The notes below the pieces were generated by a model. It worked only from the letters and a program-made list of their open reading frames with translations. It did no database searches and had not been told where the DNA came from. DNA of 64,000 nt from Shinella sp. WSJ-2. Its GTDB lineage: Bacteria > Pseudomonadota > Alphaproteobacteria > Rhizobiales > Rhizobiaceae. Within the stretch, counting starts at the first letter, position 1, and each line of letters starts with the position of its first letter. A program made the translations under genes and the position numbers. Shown here one piece after another: positions 7,608-19,691 of the stretch. The stretch spans positions 620,001 to 684,000 of the forward strand of contig NZ_QWBU01000002.1 of NCBI RefSeq assembly GCF_003432075.1, written 5' to 3'.

Positions 7608-8492
7608 ATGTCGAGCATTCTCACCAACACCTCTGCAATGGCAGCCCTCCAGACGCTGCGCACGATCAACAACGACATGGAAACGACGCAGGGCCGCATT
7701 TCGTCCGGCGAGCGCGTTGGCGCGGCCAAGGACAACGCTGCCTATTGGTCGATCGCGACCACCATGCGCGCTGACAATGCAGCCATCTCTGCCGTTCAGG
7801 ACGCTCTCGGCCTCGGCGCCGCAAAGGTCGACGTCGCCTACAGCGGTGTCGAAGCCGCCATCGACGTCGTCAAGACGATCAAGCAGAAGCTCGTTACCGC
7901 AACCGAACAGGGCGTTGACAAGACCAAGGTCCAGGAAGAAATCAAGCAGCTTCAGGACCAGCTGAAGAGCATCGGCGCTTCGGCGACGTTCAACGGTGAA
8001 AACTGGCTTGCCGGCGGCAGCGCAGACAGCACGGTTGTCACCGGCTTCGTGCGCGGCGACGACGGCACGGTTAAGGTCACGACGGCAAGCTACGACTCGG
8101 CTGCAAATGCCCTGTTCGGCGCCTATGATCCGTCCACCGGCGAAGTTGACGACAGCTCGGGCTACCTGGCCGACACGCTCGCTATCGAACTGACGGACGC
8201 CACGACCGACGATGAAGTCGCTGGCCACCTCGACACGATCGAAACGGCGCTGACGAACCTCACGACGGTCGGTTCGAACCTTGGTTCGCTCTCCATGCGT
8301 ATCGGCCTGCAGGAAGACTTCGCAAACAAGCTTTCCGACGCCCTCGACAAGGGTGTAGGCCGTCTCGTCGACGCCGACATGAACGAGGAATCGACCCGCC
8401 TGAAGGCTCTGCAGACCCAGCAGCAGCTCGCTATCCAGTCGCTGTCGATCGCGAACTCCAACTCGCAGAACATCCTCTCGCTGTTCCGTTAA
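7608..8492 (+). CDS. flaA: Flagellin (first copy)
   Basis: 294 residues. The N-terminal D0/D1 part (SSILTNTSAMAALQTLRTINNDMETTQGRISSG) and C-terminal part (RLKALQTQQQLAIQSLSIANSNSQNILSLFR) match rhizobial flagellins, with a short variable centre (about 130-210). The filament protein is exported through the flagellar gate. SD AAAGGGA lies about 8 bases before the ATG. It has its own terminator (8539-8575) and a conserved leader. The symbol follows gene order in S. meliloti (flaA first) and is positional; orthology among rhizobial flagellins cannot be fixed by reading. Confidence 0.95.
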   Translation: MSSILTNTSAMAALQTLRTINNDMETTQGRISSGERVGAAKDNAAYWSIATTMRADNAAISAVQDALGLGAAKVDVAYSGVEAAIDVVKTIKQKLVTATEQGVDKTKVQEEIKQLQDQLKSIGASATFNGENWLAGGSADSTVVTGFVRGDDGTVKVTTASYDSAANALFGAYDPSTGEVDDSSGYLADTLAIELTDATTDDEVAGHLDTIETALTNLTTVGSNLGSLSMRIGLQEDFANKLSDALDKGVGRLVDADMNEESTRLKALQTQQQLAIQSLSIANSNSQNILSLFR

Positions 8493-8748: not shown

Positions 8749-9714
8749 ATGACCAGCATTCTGACCAACGTCGCGGCAATGTCCGCTCTCAACACCCTTC
8801 GCTCGATCGGCGCGGACATGGAAACGACGCAGGGTCGCGTCTCCTCCGGCATGCGCGTCGGTGAAGCAGCAGACAACGCTGCCTACTGGTCGATCGCGAC
8901 CACGATGCGTTCCGACAACATGGCCCTTTCGGCTGTTCAGGACGCGCTCGGCCTCGGCGCCGCAAAGGTGGACACCGCCTATGCCGGTATGGAAGCCGCC
9001 ATCGACGTCGTCAAGGAAATGAAGAAGAAGGTTACTGCGGCGACCGAACAGGGCGTCGACAAGGCCAAGGTTCAGGAAGAAATCAAGCAGCTGCAGGAGC
9101 AGCTGGTTTCGATCTCGTCCGGCGCCGCCTTCAACGGCCAGAACTGGCTCGTTTTCGACAGCACCGCTGCCGACGCCGTTGCCGACAAGACGATCGTTTC
9201 GGGCTTCGTCCGCGACGCTTCCGGTACCGTCAAGGTCAACACCACGACCTACACGCTCGACGAACTGACCGCCGACTCGCAGAACGTTCTGTTCGGCACC
9301 GTTGACACCGACGACTACACGCAGAGCACCGGCGGCATCCTCGGCTCGGCCGGTGACGATATCGACGCGACGGGCAACACCTACACGATCACAGACACGG
9401 TCGTTACGCTCGACATCTCGGCCTTCACCGACGACGAAATGGCTGAAGCGCTGAACCTGACGGAAGCGGCTATCCAGCTGATGACGAAGGCTGCCTCGCA
9501 GCTCGGTTCGATTTCCATGCGCATCGATCTGCAGGAAGATTTCGCTTCCAAACTGACCGACGCAATCGACAGCGGTATCGGCCGCCTCGTCGATGCCGAC
9601 ATGAACGAAGAGTCCACCCGCCTCAAGGCTCTCCAGACGCAGCAGCAGCTGGGCATCCAGGCGCTCTCGATCGCCAACTCCTCGGCCGAGGGCATCCTCA
9701 CCCTCTTCCGTTAA
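8749..9714 (+). CDS. flaB: Flagellin (second copy)
   Basis: 321 residues, 27 longer than the first flagellin because of a larger central variable part (about 135-235). The termini are nearly the same as the first copy (TSILTNVAAMSALNTLRSIGADMETTQGRVSSG; RLKALQTQQQLGIQALSIANSSAEGILTLFR). The centre is rich in Thr, Asp and Ser, which would offer O-glycosylation sites; glycosyltransferase genes follow directly on the other strand. It has its own leader and terminator. The symbol is by position only. Confidence 0.95.
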   Translation: MTSILTNVAAMSALNTLRSIGADMETTQGRVSSGMRVGEAADNAAYWSIATTMRSDNMALSAVQDALGLGAAKVDTAYAGMEAAIDVVKEMKKKVTAATEQGVDKAKVQEEIKQLQEQLVSISSGAAFNGQNWLVFDSTAADAVADKTIVSGFVRDASGTVKVNTTTYTLDELTADSQNVLFGTVDTDDYTQSTGGILGSAGDDIDATGNTYTITDTVVTLDISAFTDDEMAEALNLTEAAIQLMTKAASQLGSISMRIDLQEDFASKLTDAIDSGIGRLVDADMNEESTRLKALQTQQQLGIQALSIANSSAEGILTLFR

Positions 9715-9796: not shown

Positions 9797-10993
<1,197 letters not shown>

Positions 10994-12280
10994 TTAGCCG
11001 GCCGCGCGCAGCGCCGGCTTTTCGGTTTCCGGGAAAAGGCGCGAGCGCATCAGGGCTTCATAGGCCTTGATGAGTGGCGTCGGATCCCAGCCGCGTTCCT
11101 GCGGGCCGAAGCTCAGATGGCTGACGGTGAAATCGGAATAGATCGCCGAGGGGCGGCCGAGGAAGGTCGGTACGCCGATGGTGAGCGCATGTTCATCGTC
11201 GCCCTGCGGCAGCGCCATGTGCAGAAGGTCGCGGCCGAGCCAGGCGATGAAGTTGATCGACTGTCGCTCGGTCCAGTCGACGGACGGCTGGGGGAGGGGC
11301 AGCGTACGGCCGTCTTCGCCCAGGAAGTAGCCGTGCAGCTTGGCTGCCCGTTCGGCGCTTTCCCAGAGCGTGCCGCCGAAACCGCCCGGCGGGTGCTCGA
11401 ACTCGCCGACCGATGCCGGGATCGAGCCCGCCGCCTGCTGGAGATAGGCGCACACGCCGTTGTTCACGACATTGGCCGAGACGATGAAGTAATGCGGGTT
11501 GGCGCGGCGGAACTGGATGTAGCCGTCGAGCTTGTCGATATCGACATAGACGATATCGTCGTCGCATTTCAGGAAGACAGCGTCCTCAAAGTCTTCGAAG
11601 CGCTTCGCGTAGTAGTCATAGGCCTGATAATAGGGCAGCTGCTCGTTCGGATTGCCGATGTAGCGGCGCGTGCGCGCATCGACATCGCAGAGTTCGAGGT
11701 CCGCACCCCAACCGCCGCGGATCTGCACGGTTGCGCCGGCCGAAAGGTTGATCTCCGGCCAGGTGCCGACCGTCACGTCGTTGATGCGCAGGATCGGCGC
11801 ACCGGCCGCATCGACGGAAAGCGTGACGTCGTTGGGACGGCCGGGCGAGAGAATGCCGGGGGTCGGCTGGCTCCAGAGCGTCTGTTCGTTGCCGCGGTCG
11901 AAATGCGAAAGCTGGTCGCGGCCGATCTTGCGCAGCACCGAATGGGTGTTCTTCCAACCCCCGACCGCGATCTCGTAGCAGTCGTGTGGGCGATCGTTCG
12001 GGATGACGGCGATGTGCAGGTCGTGACGAATGCGGGCGCTGGTGCGGAACGAGGCGCTCGGCGAGACCGTGCCGGCGCTCTGGTAGGCTACCTTGGAGCC
12101 CATATAGCGGGCCGGGCCGAATTCGCGCGTCACCCAGGCATGGTCGTCGGCCGAGCGGGTGAAGTCCCAGATGTGCCACTCGTCGATGATCCCGAGGTCC
12201 AGCGCGCGGCGAATATATTGCGTGAGGATTTCCATCCTCGTCTGCCGTCCGGCAAAGGTCACCAGGATAACTGGGGTCAT
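10994..12280 (-). CDS. Putative glycosyltransferase with internal FAM (farnesoic acid O-methyltransferase-like) domain
   Basis: 428 residues. The N-terminal part (1-80, PVILVTFAGRQTRMEILTQYIRRALD) and the part after about 210 (YYQAYDYYAKRFEDFEDAVFLKCDDDIVYVD) look like a GT-A-type glycosyltransferase; CDDD at about 240 fits a metal-binding DxD motif. Between them, about 88-205, lies a beta-sandwich-like segment with HDCYEIAVGGWKNTHSVLR, which resembles the FAM domain, a probable carbohydrate-binding module despite its name. It lies between glf and an OGT-type gene. The donor may be UDP-Galf, inferred from glf. I know no characterised close relative. Confidence 0.7.
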   Translation of the reverse strand: MTPVILVTFAGRQTRMEILTQYIRRALDLGIIDEWHIWDFTRSADDHAWVTREFGPARYMGSKVAYQSAGTVSPSASFRTSARIRHDLHIAVIPNDRPHDCYEIAVGGWKNTHSVLRKIGRDQLSHFDRGNEQTLWSQPTPGILSPGRPNDVTLSVDAAGAPILRINDVTVGTWPEINLSAGATVQIRGGWGADLELCDVDARTRRYIGNPNEQLPYYQAYDYYAKRFEDFEDAVFLKCDDDIVYVDIDKLDGYIQFRRANPHYFIVSANVVNNGVCAYLQQAAGSIPASVGEFEHPPGGFGGTLWESAERAAKLHGYFLGEDGRTLPLPQPSVDWTERQSINFIAWLGRDLLHMALPQGDDEHALTIGVPTFLGRPSAIYSDFTVSHLSFGPQERGWDPTPLIKAYEALMRSRLFPETEKPALRAAG

Positions 12281-12331
12281 GCGGTCCTCGTCGTTCAGAA
12301 CGGTTCGTGTTTCAAATCGGGTCTCCGGCCC

Positions 12332-14383
12332 TCAGCCGGCAGCACCCTTCCAAAGGCGAGCATCGGGCGTCAGCGGCGCGTGTTCGTCCATCAGTTTCAG
12401 CTGATCGAGATAGCGCTGCCGGTAGGCCTGTTCGCTTTCGAATTCGATGCCGGCGGCGGCAAGCTCGGCGCCGACCTCATAATAGACATTGAGGTTGCGT
12501 AGGTCCGGCACCGGCGTTTCGCCGCGCTCGGCGTCGCCCTGCATCTGCCAGAACAACTCTTCCAGACGGCGCACGAGGCCATCCATGTCGCGCAGCGCAC
12601 AGGTTTCGCGCTGGTCCTGCAAGGACTGGCGGATCGCGGCGAGGCTTTCCGGGTTCTTGGCGAAGGCGATTGCCTTGCCGACATAGTCTTCCGGCCCGGT
12701 GCAGATCAGCTCCGGAACGCCGGCGGCCGAGACGATGCTGGCGCAGAAGCGCGAGGCGAAGCTCTTGCCTGGCACGGTCAGCACCGGAAGGCCCTGCGTG
12801 ATCGCGTCGGCGGCGGTCGAATGGGCGCCATAGGGGAAGGTGTCGAGGAAGAGATCGGCAAGTCCGATGCGGGCCAGATGATCCGGATTCTGCACCTTGC
12901 CGGCGAAGATCAGCCGATCCGGCGAAACGCCGGCCTGCTGGGCCATCTGCTTGACGCGCTCGTTGACGCTGTCGTCCCCAACGAGCAGCCAGAGAACGCT
13001 GCCCGGCGTGGCCAGCAGGATCGCCATCCAGCGCGAGAAGCAGGAGGCCGATATCTTTTGCATGCCGTTGAAGCTTGCGAAGACGAAGGCGTCTTCCGGC
13101 AGGCCGACTGAGGCGCGCGTCGGGCGCGGACTGACGGTGCGCTTGCGGTCCACCGGCTGGTTGCAGGGGATGCGCAGGACCTTTTCCGTGTAATAAAGTT
13201 CGTTTTCCGGCGGCACGATATAGTCGTCGGCGATCATGTACTGGTGGTACGGGCTCGCCATCGAGCCGGGATAGCCGCAGAAATTCACGATCACGGGCGC
13301 CGGCCTGTAGGCGAAGATCTTCGTGCGGGCATGCTTGGTATAGCCGTTGACGTCGATGAGCACGTCGATCTCGTCGGCGACGATCTGGCGGGCCGCGTCG
13401 ATGTCGCTGACCTTGGTGATGTCGCGCCAATGATCGACAGCCTGCTTGATGCGGGCCTGCGTATGGTCGATCGGGGCCGGATCGCCGCAATAATAGGCGA
13501 AGATCTCGACCTGGGATTTGTCATGCAGCTCCAGCACTTCGCTGAGCGCAAAGCCGACGGCGTGCTGGCGCAGGTCCGAGGAGACATAGCCGACGCGCAG
13601 GCGCTGGCCGGTGCCGGATTTCTGGCGCACCGGCTTGCGCACGAAGCCGCGCGTATCCGGCCGGCCGACCGTGGCGGTGCAGTAGCGATGCGCCTTGGCG
13701 AGCTGGAAGAGCGGGTCGTCGGCGTAGCAGGCGATCGTCATGGAGGACATGGCGTCCATGAACTGCCGGCTCGAAATGTGGATGTTGGGCGTGATGACCG
13801 GCCACTTGACCTGGCGCATGCGCAGCGAAATCCAGTGCTGCGCGGCCTCGGTGCGGTGCGGCTGCAGTTCCATCGCCTGCCAGAGCGCGGCTTCTGCTTC
13901 TTCGAGCTTGCCGGCGCCTTCGAGAACGCGGCCGATATGCTGGAGCACGAGATGGCGGTGATTGATGCGGTCGGGCGTGACGTCATTGGTCGTATCGACG
14001 TAGCTGCGCCATTGCAGCACGGCCTGGCCCGTCAGGCCGCAATCCTCGAGCGTGCGGCCGAGATTGACATGGGCCTGGCCGAAATCCGGATTGATTTTCA
14101 GCGCGGCGCGTAGCGCATTCAGCGTGCCGGAGACGTCGCCGGACTTCGACAGCGAGACGGCATAGTTGAAATAGGCGAGATGCAGCAGCGGGTTGCCGTC
14201 GTTGAAGGCGATCCACGTCTTATAAAGCTCGATGGCATGCACCGGCTGTCCGGCGGCCGACAATCCCTCCGCCATCTGGAAGAGTTCGGCAAGCGAAAGC
14301 TGCTGGGTGCGGGCGCGGCCGAGAATGTTGGCAAGGGTTGCGTTCGGATCGGGAACGATGGGGGTGCTGACAGTCATGGCCAT
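12332..14383 (-). CDS. TPR-containing OGT/SPINDLY-type glycosyltransferase
   Basis: 683 residues. About residues 25-190 form TPR-like helices (GDVSGTLNALRAALKINPDFGQAHVNLGRTLEDCGLTGQAVLQW). From about 270 the GT41-type catalytic region begins: RLRVGYVSSDLRQHAVGFAL, DEIDVLIDVNGYTKHARTKIFAYRPAPVIVNFCGYPGSM, and YYTEKVLRIP. The C-terminal lobe has FASFNGMQKIS, LFLDTFPYGAHSTAADAITQGLPVLTVPGKSFASR. Family knowledge: these enzymes O-glycosylate Ser/Thr in proteins, and bacterial members near flagellin genes modify flagellin. The candidate substrates here are the flagellins on either side or the Ser/Thr-rich repeat protein encoded next door. The start may be the ATG at 14377. Confidence 0.88.
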   Translation of the reverse strand: MAMTVSTPIVPDPNATLANILGRARTQQLSLAELFQMAEGLSAAGQPVHAIELYKTWIAFNDGNPLLHLAYFNYAVSLSKSGDVSGTLNALRAALKINPDFGQAHVNLGRTLEDCGLTGQAVLQWRSYVDTTNDVTPDRINHRHLVLQHIGRVLEGAGKLEEAEAALWQAMELQPHRTEAAQHWISLRMRQVKWPVITPNIHISSRQFMDAMSSMTIACYADDPLFQLAKAHRYCTATVGRPDTRGFVRKPVRQKSGTGQRLRVGYVSSDLRQHAVGFALSEVLELHDKSQVEIFAYYCGDPAPIDHTQARIKQAVDHWRDITKVSDIDAARQIVADEIDVLIDVNGYTKHARTKIFAYRPAPVIVNFCGYPGSMASPYHQYMIADDYIVPPENELYYTEKVLRIPCNQPVDRKRTVSPRPTRASVGLPEDAFVFASFNGMQKISASCFSRWMAILLATPGSVLWLLVGDDSVNERVKQMAQQAGVSPDRLIFAGKVQNPDHLARIGLADLFLDTFPYGAHSTAADAITQGLPVLTVPGKSFASRFCASIVSAAGVPELICTGPEDYVGKAIAFAKNPESLAAIRQSLQDQRETCALRDMDGLVRRLEELFWQMQGDAERGETPVPDLRNLNVYYEVGAELAAAGIEFESEQAYRQRYLDQLKLMDEHAPLTPDARLWKGAAG

Positions 14384-14507
14384 CCTGCGGCAAGGCGGCC
14401 TTTCGGCCGGGCGGTTGAACGACTCGCAATGAGCTCGTCTGCCTTGCTACCGGAGTTGACTTGCGTCGGGCTGATCGTTTTGCGGGAAAACCGGTGTTTC
14501 GGCCCCA

Positions 14508-14547
14508 AACGAAAAGACGGCGCGGTTGGAGCCGCGCCGCCTCGTTT
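14508..14547 (-). terminator. Terminator after the octapeptide-repeat gene
   Basis: Read on the minus strand, AAAACGA leads into GGCGCGG-6 base loop-CCGCGCC, then GTCTTTTCGTTT. The stem is GC-rich with a T-rich tail, 20 bases after the stop codon. It indicates that the repeat protein has its own transcript and the glycosyltransferase genes have another or depend on read-through. Confidence 0.75.
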
Positions 14548-14566
14548 TGATGCTTTGGCGTCCTTA

Positions 14567-17500
14567 TCAGACGTCGTTGTAGGCTGCGATGACGGCTTCG
14601 ACCTGCGAGCTGCTCAGAGCCGCGATCTGTGCGCTCGTGAAGGCCTGGGCCTGTTCCGAGGTCAGACCGGCGATGTCGTCCGTGGAGAGACCCGGCAGGG
14701 CCTTCACGTTGATCGCTGCGATCTCGTCGCTGGTGAAGGTCGCGATCTCGTCCGAGTCCATCGCGTCGAGGGCGGCGGAGGAGAGTGCGGCGATCTGCGT
14801 CGAGGTCAGCGCTTCGATCTGGTCGGACGTCAGCGTTGCTACCTGATCGGTGCTCAGCGCAGCGATCTGGGTCGAGGTCAGGGCGACGATCTGGTCGCTG
14901 TCGAAGGATGCCAGAGCATCGGTCGAGAGGGACTTGATCTGGTTTGCCGTCAGGGCGGCGATCTGGCCGCTCTTCAGACCATCGACCTGGGTCGAGGAGA
15001 GAACCGCAACCTGCGCCGTCGTCAGCGAGGCGACCTGACCGGTGCTCAGCGCACCGACCTGATCGGTCGAGAGGAAGGACACGATGTCGGTCGACAGGCC
15101 GGCCAGAACCTTGGTGCTGATGGCTGCGACTTCATCCGTGGAGAACGTTGCGATCTCGTCGGATGCCATGGTGCCCAGCGCTGCGGCGCTGAGGGCTGCG
15201 ATCTGTGTGCTGGTGAGCGCCGCGACCTGATCGGAGTTCAGGACGGCGACCTGGTCGGTGGTGAGCGACGAGACCTGCTTGGAGGTCAGGACCTCGATCT
15301 GGGTGCTTTCCAGCGATGCGACGGCGTCGGTGGTGAGCGCTGCGACCTGGCTTGCCGTCAGAGCCACGACCTGGTCGGTCTTCAGGCCATCGAGCTGGTC
15401 GGAGATCAGGCTTGCGACCTGAGCCGTGGTCAGAGCGGCGACCTGAGCGGTGCTGAGGGCAGCGATCTGGTCACTTCCGAAGTTGCCGAGGGCAGCCGTG
15501 GAGAGGGCAGCCAGGACCTTGGTGGAGATGGCGGCGATTTCATCCGTGGTGAACTTGGCGATCTCATCGGATTCCATCACACCCAGTGCAGCGGCGCTGA
15601 GGGCTGCGATCTGCGCACTGCCGAGGGCTTCGACCTGATCCGAAGTCAGGGTTTCGACCTGGTCGGTGGTGAGGGCTGCGACCTGCTTGGACGTCAGGGC
15701 GGCGATCTGATCGCTGTCGAGCGATGCGATGGCATCGGTCGTGAGTTTGACGATCTGGGTCGCCGTCAGGGCAACGATGTTGGCGGAGGTCAGGCCATCG
15801 ACCTGGTCCGAGGTAAGCGTTGCGATCTGAGCGGTGGTCAGAGCGGCGATCTGCTTGCTGCTGAGGGCGGCAATCTTGTCGCTGTCGAGGTTGGCGATCG
15901 TGTCGGTCGAAAGGGCGGCCAGAACCTTGGTGGAGATGGCGGCGATTTCGTCCGTCGTGAAGGTCGCGATCTCATCCGAAGCCATCGTGTCCATGGCGGC
16001 GGCGGTGAGCGCGGCGATCTGAGTCGAGGTCAGGGCAGCAACCTGATCCGAGTTCAGGGTCTTGACCTGGTCGGTGGTCATGGCCGCGATCTGCTTGGCC
16101 GTGAGGGCTGCGACCTGGTCGCTGTCGAGCGATACGATGGCGTCGGTCGAAATCGCCGCTATCTGCTTGGCGGAGAGCGCGACGATGTTGGCCGTCGTCA
16201 AGCCATCGACCTGGTCGGACGTCAGCGTTGCAAGCTGCGCCGTCGTCAGGGCTGCGACCTGCTTGCTGCTGAGGGCGGCAATCTTATCGCTGTCGAGCTT
16301 GGAGATCGTGTCGGTCGAAAGGGCAGCCAGGACCTTGGTGGAGATGGCGGCGACTTCGTCCGTCGAGAAGGTTGCAATCTCGTCCGAAGTCATGGTGTCG
16401 AGGGCAACGGCGCCGAAGGCGGCGATCTGCGTCGACGTCAGAGCTCCGGCCTGGTCCGAGGTCAGGGCTTCGGCCTGATCGGTGGTGAGGGCTGCGATCT
16501 GCTTGGCGGAGAGAGCCGCGACCTGATCGGTCGAGAGCTTTGCGACGGCATCCGTCGTGAGGACGGCGACCTGCTTGGCTGTGAGAGCCGTGATGTTGGC
16601 GCTGGACAAGCCTGCAAGCTGGTCGGAGGTCAGCTTCGACACCTGGTCGGTGGTGAGAGCTGCGAGCTGCTTGGAAGACAGGGCGCCGATCTTGTCGCTG
16701 TCGAGGTTGGCGATCGTGTCGGTCGAAAGGGCGGCCAGGACCTTGGTGGAGATGGCGGCGACTTCGTCCGTCGTGAAGGTCGCGATCTCGTCCGATTCCA
16801 TCAGGTTGAGGGAAGCGGCGCTGAGGGCGGCGATCTGGGTGGAGGTGAGCGCAGAGACCTGATCCGAGTTCAGGATTTCGACCTGATCGGTGGTGAGGGC
16901 TGCGATCTGCTTGGCCGAGAGAGCGGCGATCTGGTCGCTGTCGAGCGAGACAACGGCATCCGTCGACATCGCGGCGACCTGCTTGGTCGTCAGGGCGGCA
17001 ACACCTGCCGTCGTCAGGCCGTCGATCTGAGCGGAGGTCAGAACGGCAACCTGTGCGGTGGTGAGCGAAGCAACCTGCTTGGAAGACAGGGCGCCGATCT
17101 GGGTGCTGTCGAAGTTGGCGATCGCGTCGGTCGAAAGGGCGGCCAGAACCTTGGTGGTGATGGCGGCGACTTCATCCGTCGTGAAGGTTGCGATTTCATC
17201 GGAAGCCATCGTGCCGAGTGCAGCGGCGCTGAGGGCGGCGATCTGCGTGCTCGAAAGGGCGGCAACCTGGTCGGAGTCGAGGATGGCGACCTGGTCGGTC
17301 GAGAGCGCGGCGACCTGCTTGGCGGAGAGGGCTGCGATCTGGTCGCTGTCGAGCGCCTTGACGGCGTCGGTGGAGAGGGCAGCAACCTGCTTGACGGTCA
17401 GAGCCGAAACCTGGCCGCTCGTCAGGCCCGCGACCTGGTCGGAGGTCAGGACGCCGACCTGCGCGGACGTCAGCGAGGCGATCTGCTTTGAAGAGAGGGC

Positions 17501-17998
17501 GCCGAGCTGGTCGCTGTTGAAATTGGCGATCGCGTCAGTGGAAATCTGCGCCAGAACCTTGGTGGAGATGGCGGCGACTTCATCCGAGGTGAAGGTCGCG
17601 ATTTCGTCCGAAGCCATCACACCCATGGCGGCGGCGCTGAGGGCGCCGATCTGTGTGGACGTCAGGGCGTCGACCTGGTCGCTGTCGAGCTGTGCGACCT
17701 GCGACGTGCTGAGCGCGTTGATCTGGGCCGAAGTGAGGCCGACGATGTTGGTGGCGCTGAGCGCGTCCATCTGCGAAAGGGTGAGACCGGTAATGGCGGC
17801 GGCGGTGACGGCGCTGAGCTGCGTGGAAGACAGCGTGGCGATGTCGTCCGATTCGAACGCGGCGATTTGCGTCGAGCTCAGAGCCTTGATCTGCGTGCTC
17901 GTCAGCGCTGCGATGTCGGTCGTGGTGAGGTTCTGGATCGCGGTCGACGAAAGCGCCTTGATCTGGTTGATCGAAAGAGATGTAACGATTGAAGTCAT
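14567..17998 (-). CDS. Giant octapeptide-repeat protein (141 tandem 8-residue units)
   Basis: 1143 residues from ATG 17998 (SD-like AAGGG 8-9 bases upstream); an in-frame extension to 18079 is unlikely. After a 12-residue start (MTSIVTSLSINQ) the protein is read as consecutive octapeptides of pattern [IVL]xx[LFI][ST][ST]x[QE], e.g. IAALTSKQ, VAALTTDQ, to residue 1140, with only NDV left over. Units are ordered in a 17-unit (136-residue, 408-bp) higher repeat. There is no Sec signal, Cys or Trp, and no recognised domain. The N-terminal MTSI resembles the flagellins' MTSILTN. Similar repeat proteins are annotated as hypothetical in other bacteria; function unknown. A surface or secreted role is only a guess from composition and neighbours. 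Confidence 0.85.
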   Translation of the reverse strand: MTSIVTSLSINQIKALSSTAIQNLTTTDIAALTSTQIKALSSTQIAAFESDDIATLSSTQLSAVTAAAITGLTLSQMDALSATNIVGLTSAQINALSTSQVAQLDSDQVDALTSTQIGALSAAAMGVMASDEIATFTSDEVAAISTKVLAQISTDAIANFNSDQLGALSSKQIASLTSAQVGVLTSDQVAGLTSGQVSALTVKQVAALSTDAVKALDSDQIAALSAKQVAALSTDQVAILDSDQVAALSSTQIAALSAAALGTMASDEIATFTTDEVAAITTKVLAALSTDAIANFDSTQIGALSSKQVASLTTAQVAVLTSAQIDGLTTAGVAALTTKQVAAMSTDAVVSLDSDQIAALSAKQIAALTTDQVEILNSDQVSALTSTQIAALSAASLNLMESDEIATFTTDEVAAISTKVLAALSTDTIANLDSDKIGALSSKQLAALTTDQVSKLTSDQLAGLSSANITALTAKQVAVLTTDAVAKLSTDQVAALSAKQIAALTTDQAEALTSDQAGALTSTQIAAFGAVALDTMTSDEIATFSTDEVAAISTKVLAALSTDTISKLDSDKIAALSSKQVAALTTAQLATLTSDQVDGLTTANIVALSAKQIAAISTDAIVSLDSDQVAALTAKQIAAMTTDQVKTLNSDQVAALTSTQIAALTAAAMDTMASDEIATFTTDEIAAISTKVLAALSTDTIANLDSDKIAALSSKQIAALTTAQIATLTSDQVDGLTSANIVALTATQIVKLTTDAIASLDSDQIAALTSKQVAALTTDQVETLTSDQVEALGSAQIAALSAAALGVMESDEIAKFTTDEIAAISTKVLAALSTAALGNFGSDQIAALSTAQVAALTTAQVASLISDQLDGLKTDQVVALTASQVAALTTDAVASLESTQIEVLTSKQVSSLTTDQVAVLNSDQVAALTSTQIAALSAAALGTMASDEIATFSTDEVAAISTKVLAGLSTDIVSFLSTDQVGALSTGQVASLTTAQVAVLSSTQVDGLKSGQIAALTANQIKSLSTDALASFDSDQIVALTSTQIAALSTDQVATLTSDQIEALTSTQIAALSSAALDAMDSDEIATFTSDEIAAINVKALPGLSTDDIAGLTSEQAQAFTSAQIAALSSSQVEAVIAAYNDV
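14600..17960 (-). repeat. 24-bp tandem repeat with 408-bp higher-order unit
   Basis: The coding sequence is a 24-bp (octapeptide) tandem array with a 408-bp super-period. A marker (TTGGTG on the plus strand, from the ISTKVLA unit) recurs at 15111, 15519, 15927, 16335, 16743, 17151 and 17559, each exactly 408 bases apart. A degenerate eighth copy is in phase at 14703. The exact spacing means no insertions or deletions have survived within the array, and it should be prone to copy-number change by recombination. Confidence 0.95.
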
Positions 17999-18634
17999 GA
18001 ACGCGCCCTTGATTGGTTGGCTGTCCACAAACGTCATGTCCCTGCGAGTCGACATCGCGAAAGGCCCGGCACGGTCCATTCACGGAAGACTCAGCATGTC
18101 CTGCGCTTGCTGCAGCGTTGGACGTCCGATAGGACCCGCTATTGGCGAAGCAATTCGGGTGTCCTGACGGACGATTCAATGTTTACTTGGAACATGACTC
18201 GAACGAGCCAGCGCATCGGAAGGGCATCATGCTTCCGGAGCCTAATCGCGGCTCCGATCCCTACGCCAGGGTCGTAAGTACCCAGATGGGTATTACTCTT
18301 ACAACTAATGAAAGTTCTAAGCAGCAAGTTCTAAAAATACGTTAACGCGATGCAACACATCCTTGCAATCGTCGAAACGTTTTGGATGGAAATGATACGC
18401 AAATTTGCCGGTTTGGTACGGCTTTGTGCCACTTGCGGGCATGGCCGTCGGGGCGTGAAATCGCTCATAGGTTGAAAGCAAGGCCTTTGAGGCCAGAACT
18501 GGCCGTCGGCCGGTAATCCTTTTTTTATGTTTCTTGCTAAAGCGTTAACGACGTTAACCATTTGTTAACCATTGGCCGTTAACTCTTCATTAAGAACGAT
18601 GGACTGGCGCCCAGGGCAAACGAGCGGCGCCGGA
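17999..18634. promoter_or_regulatory. Divergent control region between the repeat protein and the third flagellin
   Basis: 636 bases without a convincing gene. The half near 18270-18600 is AT-rich. It holds an inverted repeat TACCCA-GA-TGGGTA (18279-18292), a direct repeat AAGTTCTAA (18312-18320 and 18326-18334) and a cluster of four GTTAAC hexamers (18544-18583). Two TTAA of that cluster, at 18554 and 18565, are spaced as in the CtrA consensus TTAA-N7-TTAA. The cluster lies about 130 bases before the third flagellin ATG. No -35/-10 pair is clear. Confidence 0.5.
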
Positions 18635-18710: not shown

Positions 18711-19691
18711 ATGACCAGCATTCTGACCAACTCCGCCGCCATGGCGGCGCTGCAGACCCTCCGTTCCATCGATAACAGTCTCGAAACGACACAGGCCCGC
18801 GTTTCCTCCGGCCTGCGCGTCGAAACCGCGGCCGACAATGCCGCCTATTGGTCTATCGCCACGACCATGCGCTCCGACAACCGCGCGATCTCGACCGTCG
18901 CGGATGCCTTGGGCCTCGGTGCCGCGAAGGTCGATACTGCCTATACCTCGCTGGAAAACGTCATCGACGTGATGAGCGAGATCAAGGCGAAGCTGGTCGC
19001 CGCGCGAGAACCGGGCGTCGACAAGACCAAGATCAACGACGAAATCAAGGAGCTGAAGAGCCAGCTCGTCTCCGCGACCCAGTCGGCCTCGTTTTCCGGT
19101 GAAAACTGGCTTTATAATACGGGAACCGACGAACTCGGCATCAAGTCTGTCGTGGCGTCCTTCGTGCGCAGCGCCGACGGCAACGTCCGAGTCGCCACGC
19201 TCGATTTTGACACCGCAAACTCCGTGCTGATCGACATCGAAGCGCCGGAGCTGGGCTATCTCACCCGGTCCATCGACGTCGCCGACGTCATGGATGATCC
19301 GCCGAGCGGTGTTGGCCCTTACTACCTGATCGACATGTCGGAATACGTTTCGGGCGGATCGGCTGATGCCGGCGACCCGATCGCGATCGACAACGACACG
19401 AGCTATGACGAACTCGACGGCATGATCAGCGTCACGGACTCGATCATCAAGAACCTGACCAACGCCGCCTCCACGCTCGGCGCCATCACCAAGCGCATCG
19501 AGATGCAGGAGAGCTTCGTCGCCACCCTCGGCGACGTGATCGACAAGGGCATCGGCCGCCTGGTCGATGCAGACATGAACGAGGAATCGACCCGCCTGAA
19601 GGCGCTGCAGACCCAGCAGCAGCTCGGCATCCAGTCGCTCTCGATCGCCAATTCGAGCGCCGAGAACATCCTCCAGCTCTTCCGCCAGTAA
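18711..19691 (+). CDS. flaC: Flagellin (third copy)
   Basis: 326 residues. The termini follow the other two flagellins (TSILTNSAAMAALQTLRSIDNSLETTQARVSSGLRVE; RLKALQTQQQLGIQSLSIANSSAENILQLFRQ). The central region (about 140-235) differs in sequence and has few Ser/Thr, with GYLTRSIDVADVMDDPPSG. It is separated from the first two flagellins by the 8-kb glycosylation/repeat island. It has its own leader, and is followed by two GC-rich hairpins. The symbol is positional only. Confidence 0.94.
   Translation: MTSILTNSAAMAALQTLRSIDNSLETTQARVSSGLRVETAADNAAYWSIATTMRSDNRAISTVADALGLGAAKVDTAYTSLENVIDVMSEIKAKLVAAREPGVDKTKINDEIKELKSQLVSATQSASFSGENWLYNTGTDELGIKSVVASFVRSADGNVRVATLDFDTANSVLIDIEAPELGYLTRSIDVADVMDDPPSGVGPYYLIDMSEYVSGGSADAGDPIAIDNDTSYDELDGMISVTDSIIKNLTNAASTLGAITKRIEMQESFVATLGDVIDKGIGRLVDADMNEESTRLKALQTQQQLGIQSLSIANSSAENILQLFRQ

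Follow-up and report, generated by a model that had tools for sequence, protein, structure and literature searches.

An ALTTAQ-repeat protein of Shinella sp. WSJ-2 with a predicted screw of mini-helices, and its recurrent GT41 glycosyltransferase neighbour

The DNA examined here is a 64,000-nt stretch of Shinella sp. WSJ-2 (contig NZ_QWBU01000002.1, positions 620,001 to 684,000, hereafter the window), which contains, within a cluster of flagellin genes, a long gene for an octapeptide-repeat protein followed on the same strand by a gene for a glycosyltransferase of family GT41. From the sequence, fold predictions and gene neighbourhoods we suggest, with a probability of about 60%, that the repeat gene encodes an exported, densely O-glycosylated rod. 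The gene and its internal array are as follows:

14567..17998, minus strand: ALTTAQ-repeat protein gene, 1143 aa from its MTSI start
14733..17653, minus strand: 408-bp (17-octad) higher-order repeat array; Tandem Repeats Finder gives 7.2 copies, 76% matches and a score of 2362, and the lag in orthologues is 136 aa

A preliminary description of this stretch, made from the sequence alone, gave the extent and length of the open reading frame (ORF), which stand, and left its strand unstated. An alternative in-frame ATG upstream, at 18079, would lengthen the protein to 1170 aa. As first described, residues 13-1140 divide into exactly 141 octads that keep a single register, with no leftover residue, and this repetition is far beyond chance. 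With octad positions numbered 0 to 7 throughout, the consensus is I/V/L, A, A/T, L, T/S, S/T, D/A/K/T and Q. The pattern originally proposed, [IVL]xx[LFI][ST][ST]x[QE], is satisfied in its strict form by only 56 of the 141 octads, and its loose core (hydrophobic at positions 0 and 3, polar or small at position 4) by 131 of 142, a count that includes one partial N-terminal octad. Position 5 is Ser or Thr in 119 of the 141 octads. In steps of 408 bases from 15111, the marker described earlier is present seven times, and a degenerate eighth lies at 14703. These copies resemble one another without being identical; the longest exact word common to all seven at that spacing is 9 bases. The protein has 119 Asp/Glu, 38 Lys, 31 Gly and one Pro, a computed pI of 4.05, and no Arg, His, Trp or (as already noted) Cys among its 1143 residues. 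An antisense open frame of 1103 aa (window positions 14180-17491, plus strand) overlaps the gene; it most likely results from the GC-rich codons of the repeat and is no gene.

The protein had been described as having no known domain; this was wrong because it belongs to Pfam PF20080 (ALTTAQ repeat), which it matches at 745.8 bits over 50 stretches, against a gathering cut-off of 26.4. By phmmer it also matches the sequence of HeliScrew4 (PDB 9zem; E 1.6e-19), which has the same octad grammar over 110 residues and differs in being 120 residues long with mostly Pro-Glu at positions 5-6, where the window protein has Ser/Thr-Asp. Several other assignments were rejected. Up to an E-value of 1, Pfam listed neither Flagellin_N nor Flagellin_C in the repeat protein. 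No Gly/Asp-rich nonapeptide match of the repeats-in-toxin (RTX) kind was listed by Pfam either, and the repeat is an octapeptide with few Gly. Leucine-rich repeats gave only weak matches among PDB sequences. A phage origin was considered from just two records, both of Mycobacterium phage Squirty and both weak matches; in PHROGs there was one sizeable match, to the functionally unannotated family phrog_15773 (E 2e-35).

Fold prediction with AlphaFold, which had been proposed as a check, returned one short helix per octad. The best of five full-length models had a predicted local distance difference test score (pLDDT) of 85.9 (the others 73, 71, 69 and 55) and contains 141 helices, mostly of 5-6 residues, with starts exactly 8 residues apart at 140 of 140 steps; its overall path is not trustworthy because the predicted template modelling score (pTM) is low, at 0.41. 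A model of two repeat units (272 aa) reached a pLDDT of 94 and a pTM of 0.83, and is not deep independent evidence because its alignment drew on shifted units of the same protein plus two close orthologues. Both models are all-helical, without strands. The solenoid suggested at first sight is in agreement with these two models and with the 3.4-octad periodicity reported below, and the protein very probably folds as a helical screw of mini-helices. The nearest folds found by Foldseek were helical solenoids such as importins. Mesothelin, the best match for the 272-aa model, was set aside as a loose analogy only (TM 0.36-0.38, root-mean-square deviation about 10 Å). Models of viral proteins matched the fold weakly, and 9zem was absent from the 50 structure matches listed.

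To examine the winding of the predicted screw, each octad was treated as one step and spectra were computed over the octad series of 59 repeat blocks with at least 40 in-register octads (L078, L079 and L084-L086, in our numbering of loci, are absent from this set). A peak at 3.36-3.46 octads was among the four strongest in 58 of the 59 blocks, L155 being the sole exception, and was the strongest in 27. Other strong peaks lay mostly near 2.4 and 8.5-9, which are aliases of the second and third harmonics of the 3.4 peak. While an array of period 17 can show only multiples of 1/17, the prominence of 5/17 is not forced. From 70 repeat ORFs collected, the 56 with at least 700 residues of repeat entered a test of self-similarity lags (14 were excluded), in which lags were sought only at multiples of eight residues, from 5 to 60 octads. 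At 3.41 octads per turn the best lag fell within 0.11 turn of a whole number in all 56 ORFs, with a mean deviation of 0.037 against 0.254 expected. Both the lag and the spectrum sets include closely related orthologues as well as fragments of a single gene, and lags such as 7/14, 17/34 and 24/48 are not independent; for the ten distinct lags the mean deviation was 0.065, a value that none of the 20,000 random sets attained. When the period was varied between 2.6 and 6.0, 3.40-3.41 was selected, and the arrays of other lineages (7, 10, 24, 27, 31 and 44 octads) also close nearly whole turns. The helix lengths of the full-length model have a period of 3.41 (z 28), which was not fitted to the lags though it comes from the same sequence. 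As the best lags and the model helix lengths both give about 3.41 octads, the 408-bp unit most likely represents five superhelical turns. In two Shinella loci (L078 and L079) the repeat lag is 133 residues instead of 136, or 4.9 turns, so that some part of each unit is three residues shorter.

At a period of 3.41, the Asp residues at position 6 of the window protein centre at 63 degrees and the Lys residues at position 6 at 243 degrees. The separation of acidic and basic residues is about 130-180 degrees in many relatives but about 55-130 degrees in some Shinella members and the majority of the more distant relatives; in several relatives the basic signal is too weak for placement. Such opposed charges suggest that rods might pack side by side.

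A match to the window protein is present in 20 of 21 Shinella genomes (the exception is G002, in our numbering of genomes), the nearest named relatives being those of Shinella sp. CPCC 101442 (93% identity) and Shinella curvata (90%). Six orthologues share a length of precisely 1143 residues without insertions or deletions: five come from Shinella, counting that of the window, and the sixth from a plasmid of Pseudorhizobium flavum. The ratio of nonsynonymous to synonymous substitution rates against the window gene is 0.10-0.27, indicating purifying selection, and orthologous repeat units are 0.68-0.98 identical while paralogous units within the window protein are 0.48-0.80 identical. On these sequence comparisons the 408-bp array is old and retained, not freshly homogenised. 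In other Shinella members the open frame varies in length between about 720 and 1610 residues. The window genome carries on another contig a 2255-residue paralogue with a like start, whose lags of 56, 80 and 136 residues do not form one strict array; long members akin to it were identified in 18 of 21 genomes of the genus. On the 107-kb P. flavum plasmid (L111), flagellins, repeat gene, GT41, gtX and glf occur together, and the repeat protein is 78% identical to that of the window, closer than several Shinella ones; horizontal transfer is possible.

A start of the form MTS[IT] is common to many relatives. The MTSI start had been taken as a flagellin-like sign, and this did not hold: relatives such as those at L096, L097, L098, L101, L107 and L112 start alike with no flagellin match in the stretch fetched, so a special meaning of the start is not supported, and kinship with flagellin on this ground was rejected.

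The genes around the repeat gene are:

14514..14543, minus strand: intrinsic-terminator-like hairpin directly after the repeat gene (scan: 5 such sites in the region against 2.9 expected from shuffles)
12332..14383, minus strand: tetratricopeptide repeat (TPR) + GT41 glycosyltransferase gene, like the O-linked N-acetylglucosamine transferase OGT (Glyco_transf_41, E 2.9e-70)
10994..12280, minus strand: gtX, 428 aa, sole domain match of Methyltransf_FA type
9797..10954, minus strand: glf, UDP-galactopyranose mutase
7608..8492, plus strand: flagellin (Pfam)
8749..9714, plus strand: flagellin; its ends resemble those of the two Pfam-tested flagellins, and it was not itself scanned
18711..19691, plus strand: flagellin (Pfam), divergent from the repeat gene

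The order on the minus strand after the repeat gene is thus hairpin, TPR-GT41, gtX and glf. Because of the hairpin, the repeat gene may have its own transcript, with the sugar genes transcribed separately or by read-through. Alignment of the GT41 protein to human OGT shows that a Lys, two His and the [ST]T-x-x-D positions are conserved, which we take to be the OGT catalytic residues; the protein matches XcOGT and SPINDLY as well. For gtX no sequence relative was found in the PDB; it accompanies GT41 and glf in several genera, in some and not all of the linked loci.

The pairing of repeat gene and GT41 recurs well beyond the window. We defined a close GT41 subfamily by 60% identity or more, the next best match being 37%. 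It is present in 20 of the 21 Shinella genomes, and in 18, including the window, a repeat gene lies beside it (17 in the flagellin cluster; G007 outside). Among 199 genomes of the family Rhizobiaceae, a close GT41 occurs in 17, spread over 10 genera. PF20080 is present in 30 of the 199, including every one of these 17, and in 16 of them the two genes are side by side, often with glf present. A class-level survey found the repeat family in 6 of 385 genomes, the window's own included; GT41 lies beside a repeat gene in three of the other five (G391, G419 and G487). Of 57 matching plasmid records, seven were picked for spread, with their neighbours unseen beforehand, and GT41 was adjacent in all seven loci opened; Pfam confirmed it in the five that were run. 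The linkage recurs in Hyphomicrobiales, Rhodobacterales, Rhodospirillales and on one Pseudomonas plasmid. We consider it reasonably likely that the repeat protein is a substrate of the neighbouring GT41.

The setting invites a different explanation, in which flagellins are the proteins modified by GT41 and Glf, on the pattern of FlmG in Caulobacter crescentus, and the repeat protein is a bystander or a second substrate only. The window protein had been placed in a flagellin cluster beside glycosyltransferase genes, which is true of 17 of the 18 linked Shinella loci and of few relatives outside the genus. FlmG resembles the window enzyme in joining TPR and glycosyltransferase domains (a likeness of architecture) and in the flagellin neighbourhood seen in Shinella; according to PMC7591256, it acts on flagellin in the cytoplasm before export, as we propose for the window GT41, and uses pseudaminic acid. 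The window locus differs in that glf points to galactofuranose and in that the partner found again and again is the repeat protein. The window genome has, moreover, only one gene matching PF13844, the GT41 itself. Set against this, 12 of 14 non-Shinella family genomes with a close GT41 have the repeat gene adjoining and no flagellin match in the fetched stretch (of the other two, G037 has a flagellin and G205 lacks a nearby repeat gene), PF20080 occurs in every family genome with a close GT41, and Shinella G002 has flagellins with neither a repeat-protein match nor a close GT41. On this evidence we regard modification of flagellin as the enzyme's main role as unlikely. In G002 a different GT41 (L184, 9395-10501), 40% identical to that of the Pseudomonas plasmid, lies about 1 kb from flagellins and is a candidate flagellin glycosyltransferase.

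Not all of the genomic evidence favours a glycosylated rod, and the following observations weigh against it. In Shinella G017 and G018, GT41 and glf lie between flagellins and the 20-kb stretch contains no repeat gene, though both genomes have repeat genes elsewhere; flagellin may therefore also be a substrate, and together with the FlmG precedent (PMC7591256) these two genomes keep the flagellin explanation alive. G205 has a GT41 without a repeat match in the 20 kb fetched. Conversely, nine family genomes with clear repeat genes, a count that excludes four with weak PF20080 matches (G055, G090, G105 and G177), lack a close GT41, as do G256 and G357 in the class sample. Genomes with a linked repeat gene often carry a second, unlinked one; G391 and G419 each have one repeat gene without GT41 in its stretch.

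Amino acid composition offered a way to examine the coupling further. Modification by GT41 was predicted to bring more Ser/Thr to the possible sugar site and not to the helix cap. The predicted helices start at octad position 5, so position 4 is the N-cap and position 5 is N1; helix N-capping requires a residue of the Ser/Thr/Asp/Asn type. With the linked set assigned by hand from gene neighbourhoods, mean Ser/Thr at position 5 was 0.74 in 39 GT41-linked loci and 0.47 in 34 unlinked ones, with p 1e-8 before any kinship correction, a value that overstates independence because linked and unlinked proteins are phylogenetically structured and that to this extent tells against the reading. Position 4 was alike in the two groups (0.72 linked, 0.74 unlinked). 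Four loci (L105, L155, L154 and L156; 0.57-0.93) were set aside as ambiguous. Outside Shinella the position-5 values were 0.82 in 21 linked and 0.46 in 15 unlinked loci. An alternative ORF set, which omitted five linked loci having few octads in register and placed the contig-end pieces L105 and L155 in the unlinked group, gave 0.795 in 34 linked and 0.512 in 24 unlinked (p 5e-7). In pairs from the same genome the linked member was higher at position 5 in 18 of 21 and at position 4 in 9 of 21, with few independent events, because Shinella supplied 17 of these pairs and all three exceptions (G014, G008 and G011) come from one group with a shortened, divergent protein. The sharpest pair was in G391 (0.95 linked, 0.30 unlinked), while G419 showed nearly no difference (0.69 and 0.66).

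These data also bear on a second alternative, that of a secreted repeat protein without glycans, in which Ser/Thr serve only as helix caps and GT41 is linked for some other reason. The equal share of Ser/Thr/Asp/Asn at position 4 in linked and unlinked proteins agrees with it, as do the several genomes that have repeats without a close GT41. A further count against glycosylation comes from three linked Shinella loci (G014, G008 and G011), where GT41 stands beside a divergent repeat protein of about 720 aa with position-5 Ser/Thr of just 0.11-0.13. The surplus of Ser/Thr in linked proteins, however, falls at position 5, which in many unlinked proteins is occupied by Pro or Ala, and the linkage itself recurs across three orders and a Pseudomonas plasmid; we judge an unglycosylated protein to be quite improbable. 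The earlier suggestion that the protein is possibly glycosylated is strengthened by the coupling across genera and by the position-5 shift, and we still infer it from these patterns.

Evidence for export comes from relatives. Genes for HlyD and an ATP-binding cassette (ABC) protein, components of type I secretion, adjoin four distant relatives beside GT41: those of Cereibacter sphaeroides 2.4.1 (L113), a Pseudomonas plasmid (L114) and two class-level genomes (L149 and L153). A Rhodovastum locus carries flagellar export genes. The idea of a secreted or surface protein gains indirect support from the type I secretion genes. Two findings in the window genome count on the other side: a dedicated type I exporter was not found in it, the best full-length ABC matches being 32-34% identical, and no signal peptide was evident by eye, in accord with the first description. 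The lack of an evident signal peptide, like the importin-type solenoids among the nearest folds, would suit a cytoplasmic scaffold or binding protein. That explanation fits poorly with the type I secretion genes beside the four relatives, with the pI and the lack of Cys, Arg, His and Trp, and with a relative (L148, 8559-11987) whose repeat block lies within a large protein with flanks that by eye resemble tandem secreted-adhesin domains; we consider it very improbable. Export of the repeat protein, judged from gene neighbourhoods, is likely.

Among the relatives, the L113 protein (plasmid pA of C. sphaeroides 2.4.1, 11329-16014) is an ALTTAQ-type repeat protein despite its label "ICE nucleation protein", which in other records is "heme utilization protein". 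Ice nucleation proteins are beta-solenoids of 16-residue coils, and this assignment was rejected, the models being all-helical without strands and no such Pfam match being listed. The weak matches in three genomes (L108 of G055, L162 of G105 and L163 of G090) lie in large proteins of a different kind, which share a similar C-terminal tail, SH3/LysM-like by eye; these stretches also match FlhB or FliI, and L163 holds a clear short block of ALTPEQ-type octads. The G177 match sits in a protein that is FliF-like by eye.

Taken together, the data suggest the following model for an exported, glycosylated rod. Each octad would form one helix of 5-6 residues and a turn, confidently predicted to be capped by Ser/Thr/Asp/Asn at position 4. 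The mini-helices would wind as a screw of about 3.4 octads (27 residues) per turn, with 17 octads closing five turns, and would present a repeating surface pattern in which position 6 carries Asp on one face and Lys on the face opposite; this arrangement is seen in the sequence, and its exposure is presumed. In the cytoplasm, before export, TPR-GT41 may add sugars, in many of the octads, to the position-5 Ser/Thr with which each helix begins. Glf would probably provide UDP-galactofuranose for the first or a later sugar; that galactofuranose is part of the glycan is a tentative proposal, below even odds. The rod would leave the cell by the type I system in relatives that carry one adjacent, and outside it could serve in attachment, surface coating or shielding of the flagellar filament. 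The export, O-glycosylation, donor sugar, packing and biological role in this model are inferred.

A more elaborate version would be a two-part surface system that combines the screw rod, higher-order repeats of whole turns (7, 10, 17, 24, 27, 31 octads and the like), opposed acidic and lysine stripes for packing, one GT41-filled sugar site per mini-helix, galactofuranose from Glf, and a lineage-specific type I exporter or the flagellum, as a Gram-negative counterpart of the serine-rich-repeat glycoproteins. In this full form we find the proposal speculative and on balance doubtful. HMW1 of Haemophilus and the Gram-positive serine-rich repeat glycoproteins are exported adhesins that receive their glycans in the cytoplasm from a dedicated partner enzyme; HMW1C likewise belongs to GT41, and HMW1 carries N-linked glycans and uses two-partner secretion. 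These systems appear to differ from that of the window in sequence, fold and exporter.

Our literature search found no paper naming HeliScrew or ALTTAQ, and among the papers listed none joined GT41 with an ALTTAQ repeat; the seven containing the string PF20080 were unrelated, judged by title. The output of the PF20080 entry, of which the window protein is a member, names no function, period or partner, and the 3.4-octad screw and the GT41 coupling are new relative to it. If correct, the present reading would identify a protein on which a bacterial branch of the OGT family acts, and it would describe a scaffold of simple repeats that offers one possible sugar site per octad. It would also give a physical reason for the lengths of higher-order repeats, namely the closing of whole turns of a 3.4-octad screw, and this whole-turn rule would predict the repeat lengths permissible in other such proteins.

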